Below, one piece after another: positions 43,031 to 62,905 of a stretch of 64,000 nucleotides of DNA; the first letter of the stretch is position 1, and each line of letters begins with the position of its first letter. This DNA is from Trichocoleus sp. FACHB-40. GTDB taxonomy: Bacteria > Cyanobacteriota > Cyanobacteriia > Cyanobacteriales > FACHB-T130. The notes below the pieces were generated by a model. The model saw nothing but the letters and a program-made list of their open reading frames with translations, ran no database searches and was not told where the DNA came from. The translations under genes and the position numbers were made by a program. Location: assembly GCF_014695915.1 (NCBI RefSeq), contig NZ_JACJPF010000043.1, positions 1 to 64,000 on the forward strand, written 5' to 3'.

Positions 43031-43238
43031 CTGTCCTTTGCACTTTTATTAAGATAGCCAATAAGAATGGTTATGTCAACACTTTTGTAGAATTTTTTTT
43101 CTGGCGGGTGGGGGAAGGAAGCGATCGCTACCCAGCAAGAGGTGATTTAAAGCAAGACGTGATTTAATAAGACGATCCCTACAATTGCCCTCTCTAGAGC
43201 TGTTAGAACAGAAATAGTATTCTATCTCCTCACACTCA

Positions 43239-57203: not shown

Positions 57204-58922
57204 ATGAAGTCATTACTGAAAATTTACCAATCTCATAAAAAAGCTCTTTTAGTTCTCTTTGCAACCTGGGGACTTTACTTCTTTCTTGTATTTATTCGGA
57301 TGATTGCATATAAACCATCCGGTTTATATGTGGGTCACAAAAACGTCTGGGGAGACTGGGCGCTACACATTGGCATGGTTTCAATTTTTGCTTACAAAGA
57401 CCCCCAATATTGGTTTGCTTATCACCCCGTATATGCTGGAGGGAAATTAACTTATCCATTCCTGGTTAATTTTATTTCGGGAATGCTAGTAAGAGTAGGA
57501 TTCTCGATGGATATGGCATTTATTATTCCATCGTTGATTTATGTTTTCTTTTTGTTGACTGGTATGTATGCACTATTTTATATAGTGTTGAAATCTAAAA
57601 AGCAAACTCTTGTTGCCATATCTATCTTCTTTCTTTCAGCCGGATTGGGTTTTATCAACTTCTTAAGAGATTTTTCCAACAATCCCAGCCTAAAGATGCT
57701 TCTGTATCCAGAACAGGAATACAGTAATGCGATTCCTTATGAAGTATATTCCGGAAATTTTGTTGTCGGGATGCTGATACCGCAACGAGCATTTTTGCTG
57801 GGAATGGCACTATCGCTTTGGATAATGACTGGTTTAGTTTATATTCTTTTAAATAGAAAGCAAGCTATAGGTAATAGAAGAATTTTACTTGCATTAGGAA
57901 CATTAGCAGGATTATTGCCAATTATTCATATCCATAGCTTTATAGTCATTATTGTTGTTACAGGCTCTTTATGCCTTATCTCCTATGAAAGATGGAAAGA
58001 ATTGTTGTTTTATGGTGTTCCCGCTGCAATTATCTCAATTTCTCTCTATTTGATGTTTATCTCTGGAGGCATTGAGAATCCGCAATTTTTTCAATGGTTG
58101 CCAGGATGGACATCTACAGGTGGATTAATTGGTTGGTTAAAAATGTGGATACAGTTATGGGGAATAATGTTACCCATAGCCGTATTCGGATTTTTCTTGC
58201 TGAGAAAGCAGCCTCTAATTATTAAAACCTTCTTTTTTAGCTTTTTCTTATTATTTATACTTGCCAACTTCTTCTTATTCCAGCCCATGAGATTTGATAA
58301 TACTAAAATATTTATGTGGGCATATTTAGGTTTTGCCGGCTTAGCCGCTGTTACTCTTTCCTGGGGGTGGAGAAGAGGTGGTAGAACTTTTAGCCGATTT
58401 GATGTCGTGTTGATGGCAATTGTACTCACCTTTACAGGTTCGCTGGAACTCATACGCCTTCAGAGAATTGACCGCAATCAAGTTCAGCTGGCTAACGCTG
58501 AGGATATTAAGCTAGGAGTAGAAATTCGAGAAAAAACTGATCCTTTAGCTATATTTCTGACTTCAACAGACCATAATCATCCAGTAATGATGTGGGGTGC
58601 AAGATCAATCCTAATGGGCTACCCTGGATGGGTATTCACCTATGGTTTTTTGTATCAGCAAAGAGAAAAGGATATAGCAGTTATGTTTAAAGGAGGTGTA
58701 GAGACAGAGAAATTATTAAAGCAATATAAAATAAGTTATGTAGCTATTGGCCCTAGCGAGTTAAAAAATCTTCAGGCCAATGAATCTTACTACGCACAAA
58801 ATTATCCCGTTGCCATTCAGAATCAAAACTATCGGATTTATGATGTGAGGAAATTAGGGTTAAATTCAAACGGCGAACAACAGCTAAATGCTAGGGGCAA
58901 AGATTGGAGGGGAAATTATTGA
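57204..58922 (+). CDS. Multi-span membrane protein, probable glycosyltransferase-like
   Basis: 572 residues from the ATG at 57204; the open frame begins at 57135 inside the PMT gene but those codons read its end in another frame. About ten hydrophobic helices are followed by a soluble C-terminal part (LLKQYKISYVAIGPSELKNL). The first loop GHKNVWGDWALHIGMVSIFA has an Asp and His as in GT-C enzymes. I do not recognise a specific family. It is 47 bp after the PMT gene and overlaps the next gene by 4 bp. Confidence 0.75.
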   Translation: MKSLLKIYQSHKKALLVLFATWGLYFFLVFIRMIAYKPSGLYVGHKNVWGDWALHIGMVSIFAYKDPQYWFAYHPVYAGGKLTYPFLVNFISGMLVRVGFSMDMAFIIPSLIYVFFLLTGMYALFYIVLKSKKQTLVAISIFFLSAGLGFINFLRDFSNNPSLKMLLYPEQEYSNAIPYEVYSGNFVVGMLIPQRAFLLGMALSLWIMTGLVYILLNRKQAIGNRRILLALGTLAGLLPIIHIHSFIVIIVVTGSLCLISYERWKELLFYGVPAAIISISLYLMFISGGIENPQFFQWLPGWTSTGGLIGWLKMWIQLWGIMLPIAVFGFFLLRKQPLIIKTFFFSFFLLFILANFFLFQPMRFDNTKIFMWAYLGFAGLAAVTLSWGWRRGGRTFSRFDVVLMAIVLTFTGSLELIRLQRIDRNQVQLANAEDIKLGVEIREKTDPLAIFLTSTDHNHPVMMWGARSILMGYPGWVFTYGFLYQQREKDIAVMFKGGVETEKLLKQYKISYVAIGPSELKNLQANESYYAQNYPVAIQNQNYRIYDVRKLGLNSNGEQQLNARGKDWRGNY

Positions 58923-60844
58923 AAATTTTTGTTCCAGGTCGCTTGTGTTTGTTTGGCGAACACAGCGATTGGGCGGGTGGCTATCGCCGGGTCAATCCTA
59001 ATCTAGAAAAAGGCTACACGCTGCTGGTTGGTACAAATCAGGGACTTTATGCCGAAGTTAAGGCGAATCCAACCCAGCTGATTTTACACGCTTCTCTGAG
59101 TAACGGCAGCCGTAAAACGTTGAATCTGCCGATGGAAACAGAGGTTTTACTTGCGGAAGCTCAAAAGGGCGGTTTTTGGAGTTATGCTGCTGGTGTTGCT
59201 TACCAACTTCTCAGTCACTACCAAGTTAAAGGGCTGGAAATCGACAATTATCTGACAGATTTGCCGATTCAAAAAGGGCTATCGTCGAGTGCGGCAATTT
59301 GTGTCCTGGTGGCGCGGGCCTTCAATCGCGCGTATGACTTAAAGATGACGGTTCGGGAAGAGATGGAGTTTGCCTATCTCGGTGAAATTACCACGCCTTC
59401 GGGATGTGGACGGATGGATCAGGCTTGTGCTTACGGAAATCAACCAATCCTGATGGTCTTTGATGGCGATCGCGCTGATGTCATTGAGCTTAAAATACGA
59501 AAGAATCTGTTTTTTGTAATTGTGGATCTTGGTGCTGGCAAAAATACGCAGGAAATACTGCGTCAGCTAAATCAGTGTTATCCCTTAGCCACCAATGCAG
59601 TGCAACAAAATGTACAGAAATATCTTGGTTCAATCAGTTCTCAAATTACTCTACAAGCAGTAGACGCGCTACAAAAAGGAGATGCTGAAGAAATTGGTAC
59701 TTTGATGGAAATTGCCCAAACCCAATTTGACAAACATTTAATTCCCGCCTGTCCTTCCCAGTTAACCGCTCCTATCTTACATCAAATTCTCAATTATGAG
59801 CCACTTAAACCCTATATTTTAGGGGGAAAAGGTGTTGGTTCGCAAGGGGATGGCACAGTACAATTTATTGTTAAAGACGAAGAAAGCCAGCAACAAGTCA
59901 TAGAAATAATTAAACGGGATTTTCCTCAAATGCAAGCTTTAAGTTTAACAGTTCATTCGGATAAAAAAATTCGCAAAGCCGTGATTCCGGCTGGTGGTTT
60001 CGGCACTCGTTTGTTTCCAGCTACCAAAGCGGTGAAAAAAGAACTTTTTCCAATTATTGATAAAGATGGTCGTGCTAAGCCTGTAATTATGGCGATTGTT
60101 GAAGAAGCAATTAGCGGCGGTATAGAAGAAGTTGGGATAGTTGTGCAACCAAGCGATCGCGCAGTTTTTGAAGATTTCTTTAAGGCACCACTCGCACCAG
60201 AACTTTACAAGAAGCTATCACCCCAAAATCAGGAATACAGCCAGTATCTCCAAGATTTAGGGAGCCGAATTACGATTTTAAATCAAGACAAACCGGAAGG
60301 CTACGGTTATGCTGTATTCTGTACCAAAGAATGGGTAAAAGATGAGCCATTTCTGCTGATGCTGGGCGATCATGTTTACTCATCGGACACGGGAACATCG
60401 TGTGCAGGTCAAATTTTAGATATCTACGAACAAGCCAATCAAAGCGTTGTTAGTTTGACTACGCTTCCCGCAGAAAGCCTTTATAAATCTGGCTGTGTTA
60501 CAGGAAATTGGCAGGAGTTAAACTCAATTCTTTCTGTGACTCAACTCTCCGAAAAACCGACAATTGAGTATGCACTCCAGCGTCTTCGTGTAGAGGGAAT
60601 GGCAGAAGATCAGTTCTTATGTATATTTGGTTTGTATGTACTAACACCGAAAATTTTTGACTTTCTGGAAGAAAACATCAACAACAACACCCGCGACGAA
60701 AAAGGTGAATTTCAACTAACATCCTGTCTCGACAAATTGTGTAAAGAGGAGGGAATGACAGGATATGTTGTCAAAGGTAAGTGTTATGACACTGGATTAC
60801 CGGATCCCTATCGGCAGACGATGATTGATTTTAGAAATGTATAG
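58919..60844 (+). CDS. GHMP sugar kinase fused to UTP-glucose-1-phosphate uridylyltransferase-like domain
   Basis: 641 residues from TTG 58919, chosen because GGAGGGGA lies 7 nt upstream and the codon overlaps the previous stop (TTGA); a TTG at 58904 is also in frame. Residues 1-340 are a GHMP kinase: GRLCLFGEHSDWAGG, LPIQKGLSSSAAICVLVARA, and a glycine loop LGGKGVGSQGDGTVQFIV. Residues 345-641 are GalU-like: VIPAGGFGTRLFPATKAVKK and LLMLGDHVYSSDTG. Together this is a salvage enzyme that phosphorylates a sugar at C1 and makes its UDP form; the sugar is unknown. Plant and Bacteroides fucose enzymes join such domains in reverse order. Confidence 0.88.
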   Translation: MKIFVPGRLCLFGEHSDWAGGYRRVNPNLEKGYTLLVGTNQGLYAEVKANPTQLILHASLSNGSRKTLNLPMETEVLLAEAQKGGFWSYAAGVAYQLLSHYQVKGLEIDNYLTDLPIQKGLSSSAAICVLVARAFNRAYDLKMTVREEMEFAYLGEITTPSGCGRMDQACAYGNQPILMVFDGDRADVIELKIRKNLFFVIVDLGAGKNTQEILRQLNQCYPLATNAVQQNVQKYLGSISSQITLQAVDALQKGDAEEIGTLMEIAQTQFDKHLIPACPSQLTAPILHQILNYEPLKPYILGGKGVGSQGDGTVQFIVKDEESQQQVIEIIKRDFPQMQALSLTVHSDKKIRKAVIPAGGFGTRLFPATKAVKKELFPIIDKDGRAKPVIMAIVEEAISGGIEEVGIVVQPSDRAVFEDFFKAPLAPELYKKLSPQNQEYSQYLQDLGSRITILNQDKPEGYGYAVFCTKEWVKDEPFLLMLGDHVYSSDTGTSCAGQILDIYEQANQSVVSLTTLPAESLYKSGCVTGNWQELNSILSVTQLSEKPTIEYALQRLRVEGMAEDQFLCIFGLYVLTPKIFDFLEENINNNTRDEKGEFQLTSCLDKLCKEEGMTGYVVKGKCYDTGLPDPYRQTMIDFRNV

Positions 60845-60887
60845 TAGATAAGGATTTATACTTTTATCACCCTTTTAGGCTTTCCAA

Positions 60888-61011
60888 TGAAAAAGCGCCT
60901 GGGAGTCTTGCCGTGTTTCGACCCCAAGCGCTTTTTCTTTTAAACTTGCTCCTCACACAAGAAGAGCATATCCCTGTTCAGTTCAAGAATAAGTCTGGAG
61001 AGTGACACTTT
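60888..61011 (-). ncRNA. Candidate small RNA gene, tandem copy 1 (Yfr2-like?)
   Basis: On the minus strand this reads AAAGTGTCACT (upstream), GGGATATGCT, a hairpin GCTCTTC-TTGTGT-GAGGAGC, an A-rich linker, and a second hairpin GCGCTTGGG…CCCAGGCGC with loop GAAACACGGC, ending in TTTTTCATT like a terminator. Differences from copy 2 keep the pairs only as minus-strand RNA (G-U), while the plus strand gets A-C mismatches. GTGTGAGGAG is the exact complement of the conserved Yfr1 core CUCCUCACAC, as I recall it, and Yfr2-family RNAs are reported to match Yfr1. The family call is tentative and the RNA start is not known. Confidence 0.55.
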
Positions 61012-61042
61012 AGAAAGTGGACGCTGTTAACATTTCTGTCCA

Positions 61043-61168
61043 ATGAAAAAGCGCCTGGGAGTCTTGCCGTGTTTCGACCCCAGGCGCTTTTTCCTTTAAG
61101 CTCGCTCCTCACACAAGAGAAGCATATCCCTGTTCAATCCAACCAAGGGGTATGCCAAGTGACACTTT
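61043..61168 (-). ncRNA. Candidate small RNA gene, tandem copy 2 (Yfr2-like?)
   Basis: Second copy of the element. Minus-strand hairpin 1 is GCTTCTC-TTGTGT-GAGGAGC, with the wobble pair moved one step relative to copy 1. Hairpin 2 is GCGCCTGGG…CCCAGGCGC with the same loop, followed by TTTTTCATT. The upstream AAAGTGTCACTT and GGGATATGCT are kept, which suggests a shared promoter. Its own 5' flank has an extra inverted repeat, GCATACCCC with GGGATATGC, absent in copy 1. It starts 15 bp past the purH stop, so read-through from purH is possible. Confidence 0.55.
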
Positions 61169-61182
61169 GATAACTGACACTC

Positions 61183-62730
61183 TTAATGCAAGAAATGACG
61201 CACACCAGTGAATACCATCACCAAACCCAATTCATCCGCTGCTTGAATCGAATCTTGATCGCGCATACTGCCACCCGGCTGAACAATCGCCACAATTCCC
61301 GCCCCTGCTGCTGTTCGCACCGAATCATCAAACGGAAAGAAACCATCGCTGGCAAGGGTGGCACCTTGAGATTTTTCCCCAGCTTGTTCAAGGGCAATTT
61401 TAACTGAGCCGACGCGATTCATTTGTCCGGCACCAACTCCTAAGGTAGCGCGATCGCCTGTTACTACAATTGCATTAGACTTGACGTGCTTGCAAATCTT
61501 CCAGGCAAATAGCAATTCTTCGAGTTGATCTGGAGTCGGTTGCTTTTGGGTGACAACTTGCCACTCGGTGGAGGTTTCCACAACATCATCGGCAGCTTGC
61601 ACCAGAAAACCACCAGCGATCGCTTTCACTGTATTTTCCGGGCCAGCACCTATATCTGGTAAAATCAAAACCCGCACCTTAGACTTAGCTGCCAGAATTT
61701 CCTGCGCCTCTGGGGTATAACCCGGTGCTACAACACATTCTAAAAATGTTTTCGTCAGCGCTGTTGCTGTCGGTTCATCAATCGACTTGTTTAGGGCTAC
61801 AATCCCACCAAAAGCCGAAACTGCATCCGCATTGAAAGCCTTTTCATAAGCCTCAGACAGGCTATCTCCCACAGCCACACCGCAGGGATTCGTGTGCTTG
61901 AGAATCGCCGCCGCTGGCTTATCTGTAAATTCAGCAATAATTCGCCGCGCTGCTTCTAAATCAACTAAATTGTTGTAACTCAGTTCCTTTCCCTGGAGTT
62001 TTGTGGCCGCCGCCCATCCAGAGGCAACTTTTCCAGTTTGATACCACGCTGCCGCTTGATGGGGATTTTCGCCGTAGCGTAGAGATTGCAGCTGGTTTCC
62101 AGAAAGGGTAAAGCTTGTTTCTTCGCTTTCTTCCTCCTGTTTGCTGGCAAAGAGGTGGATGTAGGATGCGATCGCGCGATCGTAGTCCGCAGTGTGGGAA
62201 AATGCCTCGCAAGCACAAGCTTGCCGAAACTCTAAAGATGCCTCTTTACCATACTCTTTTAATTCTTTCAAGTAAGCATCGTACTGACCTGGATTACACA
62301 ACACCGTTAGATGCTGGAAGTTTTTTGCAGATGCCCTTAACATAGCAGGGCCACCGATGTCAATCTGCTCAATCGCCTCCGGCAAAGTTACACCCGGTTT
62401 AGCAATAGTCTGCTCAAAAGGATATAGATTCACCACCACTAAATCAATCGGACGAATTTGGTGATTTTCCAAATCTGCCACATCTTGCGGCAAATCCCGA
62501 CGCGCTAAGATACCGCCATGAATCCGGGGATGCAGCGTTTTGACTCGTCCCCCCAAAATCTCCGGAAACCCCGTGTAATCAGAAACTTTTGTTACTTTTA
62601 GCCCAGCATCTTTTAGGGCTTTGGCTGTTCCACCACTGCTGATGATATCAAACTCAAATTCCACTAGCTGACGGGCGAAATCGATTAGCCCGGTTTTATC
62701 AGATACACTCAGCAGCGCTAAACGTGGCAT
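61183..62730 (-). CDS. purH: Bifunctional AICAR formyltransferase / IMP cyclohydrolase
   Basis: 515 residues from the ATG at 62730 (MPRLALLSVSDKTGL); the frame is open to 62835 but those codons do not belong to PurH. It catalyses the last two steps of IMP synthesis. The N-terminal cyclohydrolase shows SDKTGLIDFARQLVEFEFDI, SSGGTAKAL and GGRVKTLHPRIHGGIL; the transformylase half shows LRYGENPHQAAAWY, AAAILKHTNPCGVA and the C-terminal QPGGSMRDQDSIQAADELGL. Length and motifs are standard. Confidence 0.97.
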   Translation of the reverse strand: MPRLALLSVSDKTGLIDFARQLVEFEFDIISSGGTAKALKDAGLKVTKVSDYTGFPEILGGRVKTLHPRIHGGILARRDLPQDVADLENHQIRPIDLVVVNLYPFEQTIAKPGVTLPEAIEQIDIGGPAMLRASAKNFQHLTVLCNPGQYDAYLKELKEYGKEASLEFRQACACEAFSHTADYDRAIASYIHLFASKQEEESEETSFTLSGNQLQSLRYGENPHQAAAWYQTGKVASGWAAATKLQGKELSYNNLVDLEAARRIIAEFTDKPAAAILKHTNPCGVAVGDSLSEAYEKAFNADAVSAFGGIVALNKSIDEPTATALTKTFLECVVAPGYTPEAQEILAAKSKVRVLILPDIGAGPENTVKAIAGGFLVQAADDVVETSTEWQVVTQKQPTPDQLEELLFAWKICKHVKSNAIVVTGDRATLGVGAGQMNRVGSVKIALEQAGEKSQGATLASDGFFPFDDSVRTAAGAGIVAIVQPGGSMRDQDSIQAADELGLVMVFTGVRHFLH

Positions 62731-62802
62731 CACGGTAAAACTTTCCCTTTGTCCAACATCATTAAGGATAAATGCGATCGCTCTCCTTCTGCACAAAAAG
62801 AC

Positions 62803-62833
62803 GAACCCTGCCCTCACGGCATGGGCAGGGTTC
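62803..62833 (-). terminator. Rho-independent terminator of the psaFJL group
   Basis: GAACCCTGCCC (minus strand reads GAACCCTGCCC…GGGCAGGGTTC) with an 9-nt loop, followed on the minus strand by GTCTTTTTG. It lies after psaL, before purH. A second, weaker hairpin is at 62852-62882. Confidence 0.7.
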
Positions 62834-62905
62834 ATTTAGTAGTCTTTAATACTGGAAGCCTTTTATAACAAAAGGTTTCCAGGCTACTGTTGCTCTTTTA
62901 CAGAA

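Follow-up and report, generated by a model that had tools for sequence, protein, structure and literature searches.

A tandem pair of minus-strand Yfr2 (Cyano-1) small RNA genes behind purH in Trichocoleus sp. FACHB-40, each preceded by a candidate promoter element

The small RNA Yfr2 occurs in nearly all cyanobacteria. The Cyano-1 motif is the hallmark of Yfr2 RNAs, according to the available excerpts of PMC8400943, and Cyano-1 corresponds to RF01701 in a table of PMC2864571, likewise available in part. The accessible text of PMC2662882 describes a long Yfr2 helix that carries a 12-nt loop and, at position -4 relative to this loop, a bulge. For Synechocystis it reports the mapping of Yfr2 start sites and a 5' end that, by prediction, is single-stranded over 8-13 nt. 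The interaction of Yfr2 with another small RNA, Yfr1, is treated in the accessible sections of PMC6778093, by which Yfr2 relieves a reporter in E. coli from repression by Yfr1, Yfr1 is enriched when Yfr2 is used as bait, and the cleavage of Yfr2 by RNase E is blocked by Yfr1; these sections also place most yfr1 homologues in a guaB/thioredoxin neighbourhood and term the yfr2 loci unconserved. In Nostoc, EMSA gel shifts show an interaction between Yfr2 and Yfr1, Yfr2 is upregulated under nitrogen deprivation, and four yfr2 repeats are present in Nostoc sp. PCC 7120, as stated in the available part of PMC6974561.

In this study, we describe two further yfr2 genes in a 64,000-nt stretch of DNA from Trichocoleus sp. 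FACHB-40, the whole of which is referred to below as the window. Two direct minus-strand repeat units, 156 bp apart from start to start, share 92% identity across 107 nt, and thus the two copies and the offset noticed in an earlier analysis of the letters alone (the sequence-only reading) are real. The first yfr2 gene (61042..61116, minus strand) starts 67 nt past the end of purH, and the second occupies 60886..60960 on the same strand. The pair is located between purH, which encodes the AICARFT/IMPCHase bienzyme (61183..62835, minus strand, upstream of the pair; Pfam PF01808 and PF02142), and, on the plus strand, a convergent gene (58904..60844; PF00288, PF00483). This gene is a single open reading frame in which a GHMP-kinase N domain is joined to a nucleotidyl transferase domain.

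A search of the whole window against Rfam using cmscan returned three matches above the cut-off, namely one tRNA and two minus-strand RF01701 (Cyano-1) elements, which scored 51.7 bits for the first copy and 50.5 bits for the second against a curated gathering cut-off of 41. Neither Yfr1 (RF01116) nor Cyano-2 (RF01702) matched at the pair, either in this search or in a permissive scan to E = 10, and the permissive scan gave no better family than RF01701 at the site. The RF01701 matches, together with the literature that equates Cyano-1 with Yfr2, identify the tandem pair as Yfr2. The central proposal of the sequence-only reading, Yfr2-like minus-strand small RNA genes complementary to Yfr1, is therefore borne out by the above-threshold RF01701 matches and by the strand preference of a family model described below, and the covariance search that it had suggested found RF01701 and neither of the other two models. 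Its alternative of a related, possibly unlisted family is ruled out by the scores of both copies above the curated cut-off, and the elements are not Yfr1 either: Yfr1 and Cyano-2 were both rejected at the site for lack of a match, and the Yfr1 gene lies elsewhere in the genome.

The family is present throughout the genomes compared, with RF01701 matches at E <= 0.001 in all 60 (FACHB-40 and 59 relatives) and above the cut-off in 41 of them. FACHB-40 itself has three Cyano-1 places, the tandem pair and one on another contig (C95:96405-96475) that scored 35.9 bits with RF01701, below the cut-off, was missed at E 0.01 by the all-Rfam scan, and reached 52.4 bits with our family model; over the whole genome this model adds a single weak candidate (E 0.4). 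The same-species genome likewise has three RF01701 matches, both tandem copies above the cut-off and one match below it, so that the presence of several copies per genome that is typical of Yfr2 is seen in both genomes. For comparative analysis we used 141 homologues, obtained from 153 regular-expression rows after removal by eye of 12 chance or duplicate rows; this set omits eight lower-scoring RF01701 places, and two loci (L030, L164) gave no match to the expression. It is divided into 39 genes of a distinct class, termed class B, and 102 non-B genes.

Each copy folds into a long hairpin, at 61045..61093 (minus strand) in copy 1 and, in the same form, at 60889..60937 (minus strand) in copy 2. 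The helix of copy 1 comprises 18 pairs, with a 1-nt bulge three pairs beneath the 12-nt loop GAAACACGGCAA; both window copies thus have the loop length and the bulge known for Yfr2, the bulge following three pairs on the 3' arm. In an alignment of 44 homologues, hand-picked for diversity among the 102 non-B genes, two-sided changes were found at 16 of the 18 pairs and 95.1% of cells were paired, a value reached in 0 of 500 shuffles and nowhere approached by slid versions of the helix, whose 18-pair definition was taken from the fold of the window copies. The 5' motif, the sequence of the 12-nt loop and the bulge are conserved throughout the family in this alignment. Compared with the aligned Nostocales-type copies (n=9), in which the loop is enclosed by GUG...CAC, the window copies have GUC...GAC.

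Relative to dinucleotide shuffles, the minus strand folds with z-scores of -5.6 and -5.7, and the plus strand at the same site folds as well (-5.2 and -4.0); hardly any of 200 shuffles matches either strand, so that the fold alone does not tell the strand. The family model built from the alignment scored the second and first copies at 95.9 and 93.9 bits, respectively, on the minus strand, as opposed to 19.6 and 22.2 bits on the plus strand; both copies are training sequences of this model, so that its scores inform only through the difference between the strands. The RNA strand is minus, settled by the family model rather than by structure alone. The sequence-only reading had arrived at the same strand from the comparison of just two sequences, a thin argument with the right outcome. 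The two changes between the copies and the five T ending each copy are present as it described them, and the CU-to-UU change in the long helix does pair as G-U on the minus strand and is broken on the plus strand; the same-species genome has the opposite letter at this position, and the change is therefore a strain-level difference. An origin of the signal in plus-strand RNAs, for instance Yfr1-like or Yfr10-like ones carrying CUCCUCACAC, could be proposed since CUCCUCACAC is found on the plus strand behind a hairpin. It is extremely improbable given the lack of an RF01116 match at the site and the 20-22 bits of the plus strand against 94-96 bits of the minus strand. Yfr10 has the Yfr1 motif in a hairpin loop; at this locus, the letters resembling Yfr1 belong to the strand opposite the RNA and lie outside any loop.

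The A/U-rich base of the long hairpin suggests that in copy 1 it is probably a terminator. The copy 2 hairpin, with T-rich DNA after its plus-strand side too, may also terminate the convergent plus-strand gene. A consensus scan, whose rules allow loops of 3-8 nt only, found no terminator-like site. It could be argued that the hairpins are nothing other than terminators, one for the 3' end of purH and a bidirectional one serving the convergent gene, and that their duplication is accidental, as they lie between convergent genes, have A-rich and T-rich sides and can fold on both strands. We regard this as very improbable, because termination has no need of a conserved 5' motif, a conserved 12-nt loop sequence or a bulge, and because an upstream element and a -10-like box accompany each copy separately.

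Two hairpins per copy had been claimed in the sequence-only reading, and the long one is upheld by its covariation, whereas the upstream one (hairpin 1) is not. At least six of its seven pairs can form in 2 of 100 non-B homologues outside the window (2.9 in shuffled controls) and in 3 of 38 class-B homologues outside the FACHB-40 genome (3.1 in shuffled controls); with pairing at the control level in these 138 homologues, a role of hairpin 1 as a conserved RNA element was rejected. The 5' arm of this hairpin, GCUUCUC or GCUCUUC, starts inside the sequence TATGCT, a -10-like box recognised from the sequence and the homologue comparison at 61121..61126 in copy 1 and 60965..60970 in copy 2 (both minus strand), 14 nt upstream of GTGAGGA; in copy 1 the arm (61117-61123) overlaps the 3' half of the box. 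The pattern TAnnnT occurs 12-20 nt upstream in 82 of the 102 non-B genes (38.2 in shuffled sequences) and in all 39 class-B genes (12.2 shuffled). Since the pairing is unconserved and the arm overlaps a likely -10 box and the probable start region, the hairpin 1 region is probably promoter and not RNA. Judging from the position of the box, the RNAs probably start near 61114-61115 (copy 1) and 60958-60959 (copy 2), and would then have a short unpaired 5' end, a feature that depends on the start site and is in line with the -10 position. A consensus scan for sigma-70-type promoters returned none at the pair.

A Yfr2 variant with two hairpins, in which hairpin 1 is transcribed and partly hides the anti-Yfr1 motif so that pairing with Yfr1 would require its opening, would be in keeping with the ability of hairpin 1 to fold in all three Yfr2 copies of FACHB-40 and with its arms at the purH locus, which are identical in the same-species genome. 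It is nonetheless improbable in view of the shuffle-level complementarity in both homologue classes, the start of the arm within the widely shared -10-like box, and the single-stranded 5' end of 8-13 nt predicted for Synechocystis Yfr2 in the accessible text of PMC2662882. As all three genome copies can form it, hairpin 1 may be a peculiarity of the FACHB-40 copies.

The 5' motif UGUGUGAGGAG, complementary to Yfr1, is located at 61105..61115 in copy 1 and 60949..60959 in copy 2 (minus strand), with the conserved Yfr2 10-mer GUGUGAGGAG at 61105-61114 and 60949-60958; the number of occurrences expected for this 10-mer within the window is about 0.09. A third occurrence (43226-43235, minus strand), approximately 200 nt upstream of a tRNA-Glu gene, has no hairpin, and was rejected as a yfr2 gene and taken as chance. 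The Yfr1 gene of FACHB-40 (RF01116, 61.8 bits) is outside the locus, flanked by IMP-dehydrogenase-like (guaB) and thioredoxin-like open reading frames, both named by eye. It carries ACUCCUCACACC and contains the exact complement of GUGUGAGGAG, which confirms against the genome's own Yfr1 the claim of the sequence-only reading that each copy bears the exact complement of the Yfr1 core. The two RNAs are thus distinct: the window RNAs carry the 10-nt motif and Yfr1, encoded elsewhere, its complement. Cofolding predicts a 10-bp duplex of GUGUGAGGAG and CUCCUCACAC that keeps the long helix of Yfr2 and keeps or shortens the first hairpin of Yfr1, with gains of -21.0 and -18.0 kcal/mol for RNAs starting at UUGUGUG; inclusion of hairpin 1 reduces the gains by about half or more, to -10.7 and -7.3 kcal/mol.

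Directly supported are the assignment of the pair to the family, its strand, the helix, the cassette-like layout and the complementarity to the Yfr1 of this genome. Transcription and its start sites are inferred from these features: each gene would be transcribed from its own promoter into an RNA some 70 nt long, and GUGUGAGGAG at the unpaired 5' end of this RNA would pair with the CUCCUCACAC core of Yfr1. By analogy with the experiments made on Yfr2 in other organisms, Yfr1 bound in this way would be withdrawn from its mRNA targets, and two copies would mean a higher dosage. As a whole, we consider it very likely that the locus consists of two paralogous minus-strand Yfr2 genes, each equipped with a separate upstream element, -10-like box and terminator-like hairpin, and each producing an RNA of this size that sequesters Yfr1. 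The pair shares with the Yfr2 family (RF01701) the covariance match above the cut-off, the 5' GUGUGAGGAG, the 12-nt loop, the bulge below the loop, the multiple copies per genome and the complementarity to Yfr1, and differs in its tandem arrangement, its place immediately behind purH and an upstream element centred on AGTGTCAC. The two genes are new members of a known small RNA family, and as RNA genes they are ordinary.

The upstream element was located by pattern match as CAGTTATCAAAGTGTCAC in copy 1 (61159..61176, minus strand) and CACTTTCTAAAGTGTCAC in copy 2 (61002..61019, minus strand), with AGTGTCAC some 40 nt ahead of the -10 box. If up to one mismatch is allowed, AGTGTCAC is present at -62 to -45 in 58 of the 102 non-B genes (0.46 expected from shuffles), and exactly in 31 (0.02 expected), numbers to be read in light of the fact that it was first noticed in part of the tested rows, which makes the enrichment test an after-the-fact one, and that the rows are not independent because many are paralogues. 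The element is absent from the other 44 non-B genes, and -35-like boxes occur in 22 of the 102. A column count over the 58 rows (drawn from loci L001-L032, L041-L120 and L127-L186) revealed a palindrome-like pattern, CA[G/C]TT-N4-AA[G/C]TG-TCAC, whose distance from the -10-like box hardly varies. The last eight columns of the element were selected for and the upstream ones were not; among the latter, C is found in 58 rows, A in 57, and T in 55 and 49, and the A preceding AGTGTCAC in 58 of 58. Both window copies match the pattern exactly.

The upstream element is possibly a new promoter element, and it may regulate yfr2. No paper linked to AGTGTCAC in cyanobacteria appears by title among the literature matches listed, and none joining TGTCAC with Yfr2 was found in the literature searched. 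The arrangement GT-N10-AC is completed by AC in 22 of the 32 rows assigned to Nostocales (by the author, three of them, from one genome (G038), by resemblance) versus 6 of the remaining 26 rows; these six include both window copies. The consensus of NtcA is GTA-N8-TAC, and NtcA control of yfr2 is offered only as a suggestion; the GT-N10-AC overlap, seen in both window copies as well as in heterocystous strains, could add such control.

Class B, a second and very uniform class of yfr2 genes that mostly read GUGUGAGGAGCGAAC... (loci L003, L138, L144, L149, L152-L154, L157, L159-L163 and L165-L186), has GAGACGAAAC before the loop, TTGACA-like -35 boxes in 37 of its 39 rows, and AGTGTCAC in 0 of 39. 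The class-B copy of FACHB-40 has a GAAC that can extend its pairing to GUUC of Yfr1. Six loci (L137, L140, L142, L146, L155, L156) represent a third promoter type with a ATCTGTCATAAGG-like upstream sequence.

Genome-wide, the exact element pattern was found 60 times in the 60 genomes (FACHB-40 and 59 relatives) versus 13 times for a reversed control; 13 of the 60 matches (11 sites) are just upstream of a listed yfr2 gene and 47 are not, which rules out an element private to yfr2. With one mismatch allowed, the FACHB-40 genome has 17 matches versus 9 for the control. The family model detected yfr2 at 4 of 43 element loci (14 of the 17 FACHB-40 matches and 29 exact-pattern loci), and 23 of 30 loci inspected have the element outside any open reading frame of at least 120 aa. 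The copies away from yfr2 (L188, L205-L233) are mostly outside long open reading frames and near unrelated genes, including those for an intein-containing RtcB and a NorB-like oxidase. No common function emerged among the ten proteins, one without a Pfam match, beside nine element sites. The sites away from yfr2 may reflect chance or other targets.

The linkage to purH was surveyed in the best 80 loci of a longer list of purH loci from named genomes. Downstream of purH on the same strand, yfr2 is present at 22 of these 80 (between L042 and L092), with 48 copies in total: three copies at eight loci, two at seven, one at six and four at one. All 22 belong to genera that we take to be heterocystous or, in one case, to the order Nostocales. 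Two further Nostocales-type loci among the best 80 (L069, L070) and the remaining 56 have no yfr2 behind purH; at 4 of the 80 the sequence extends less than 800 nt beyond purH, and copies were possibly missed there. One copy from each of eight loci (8 of the 48) belonged to the training set of the model, and a plain pattern search that predated the model had found the same 22 loci and one chance locus. Three further weak minus-strand matches at purH loci are antisense readings of the same hairpins. The layout is regular, as the first copy starts 82-100 nt beyond the purH match at 17 of the 22 loci and neighbouring copies are spaced by 134-171 nt in 21 of 26 distances.

Within the family of FACHB-40, the same-species genome carries the pair at purH, and four genomes from other genera have purH with no yfr2 within 1.5-kb flanks. 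In one of these four (G003), the convergent gene is kept as well, and an open reading frame of 241 aa (L240, 731-1456) stands between it and purH, at the place of the yfr2 pair in the window. The linkage is recurrent, not fixed. The purH-linked tandem array differs in this respect from the yfr2 loci termed unconserved in the available sections of PMC6778093. It resembles the yfr2 repeats of Nostoc sp. PCC 7120 in being a set of repeated Yfr2 genes in one genome; the Nostocales-type records have their repeats behind purH, and those of PCC 7120 are given by number only in the accessible part of PMC6974561. No report of Yfr2 together with purH was found in the literature searched, the coverage of which is incomplete, and both the repeated arrangement at purH and the control-site-like element shared by the two copies look little studied.

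Taken together, these observations allow us to propose, tentatively and at somewhat less than even confidence, that purH-linked yfr2 genes form a separately controlled branch of the family, in which an element bound by a regulator would replace the -35 box and NtcA control could be added by the GT-N10-AC overlap, so that the number of copies in the array would set the extent to which nitrogen stress releases Yfr1. The operator-like element would, as part of this same tentative reading, bind a regulator not yet tied to Yfr2 outside marine strains. In its boldest form, which arises because Yfr1 adjoins guaB and the array adjoins purH, the proposal would have Yfr1 and the yfr2 array report on the IMP branch point, if true. 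The recurrent tandem array and its sharply positioned upstream element provide a testable handle on how the level of Yfr2 is controlled outside marine strains.
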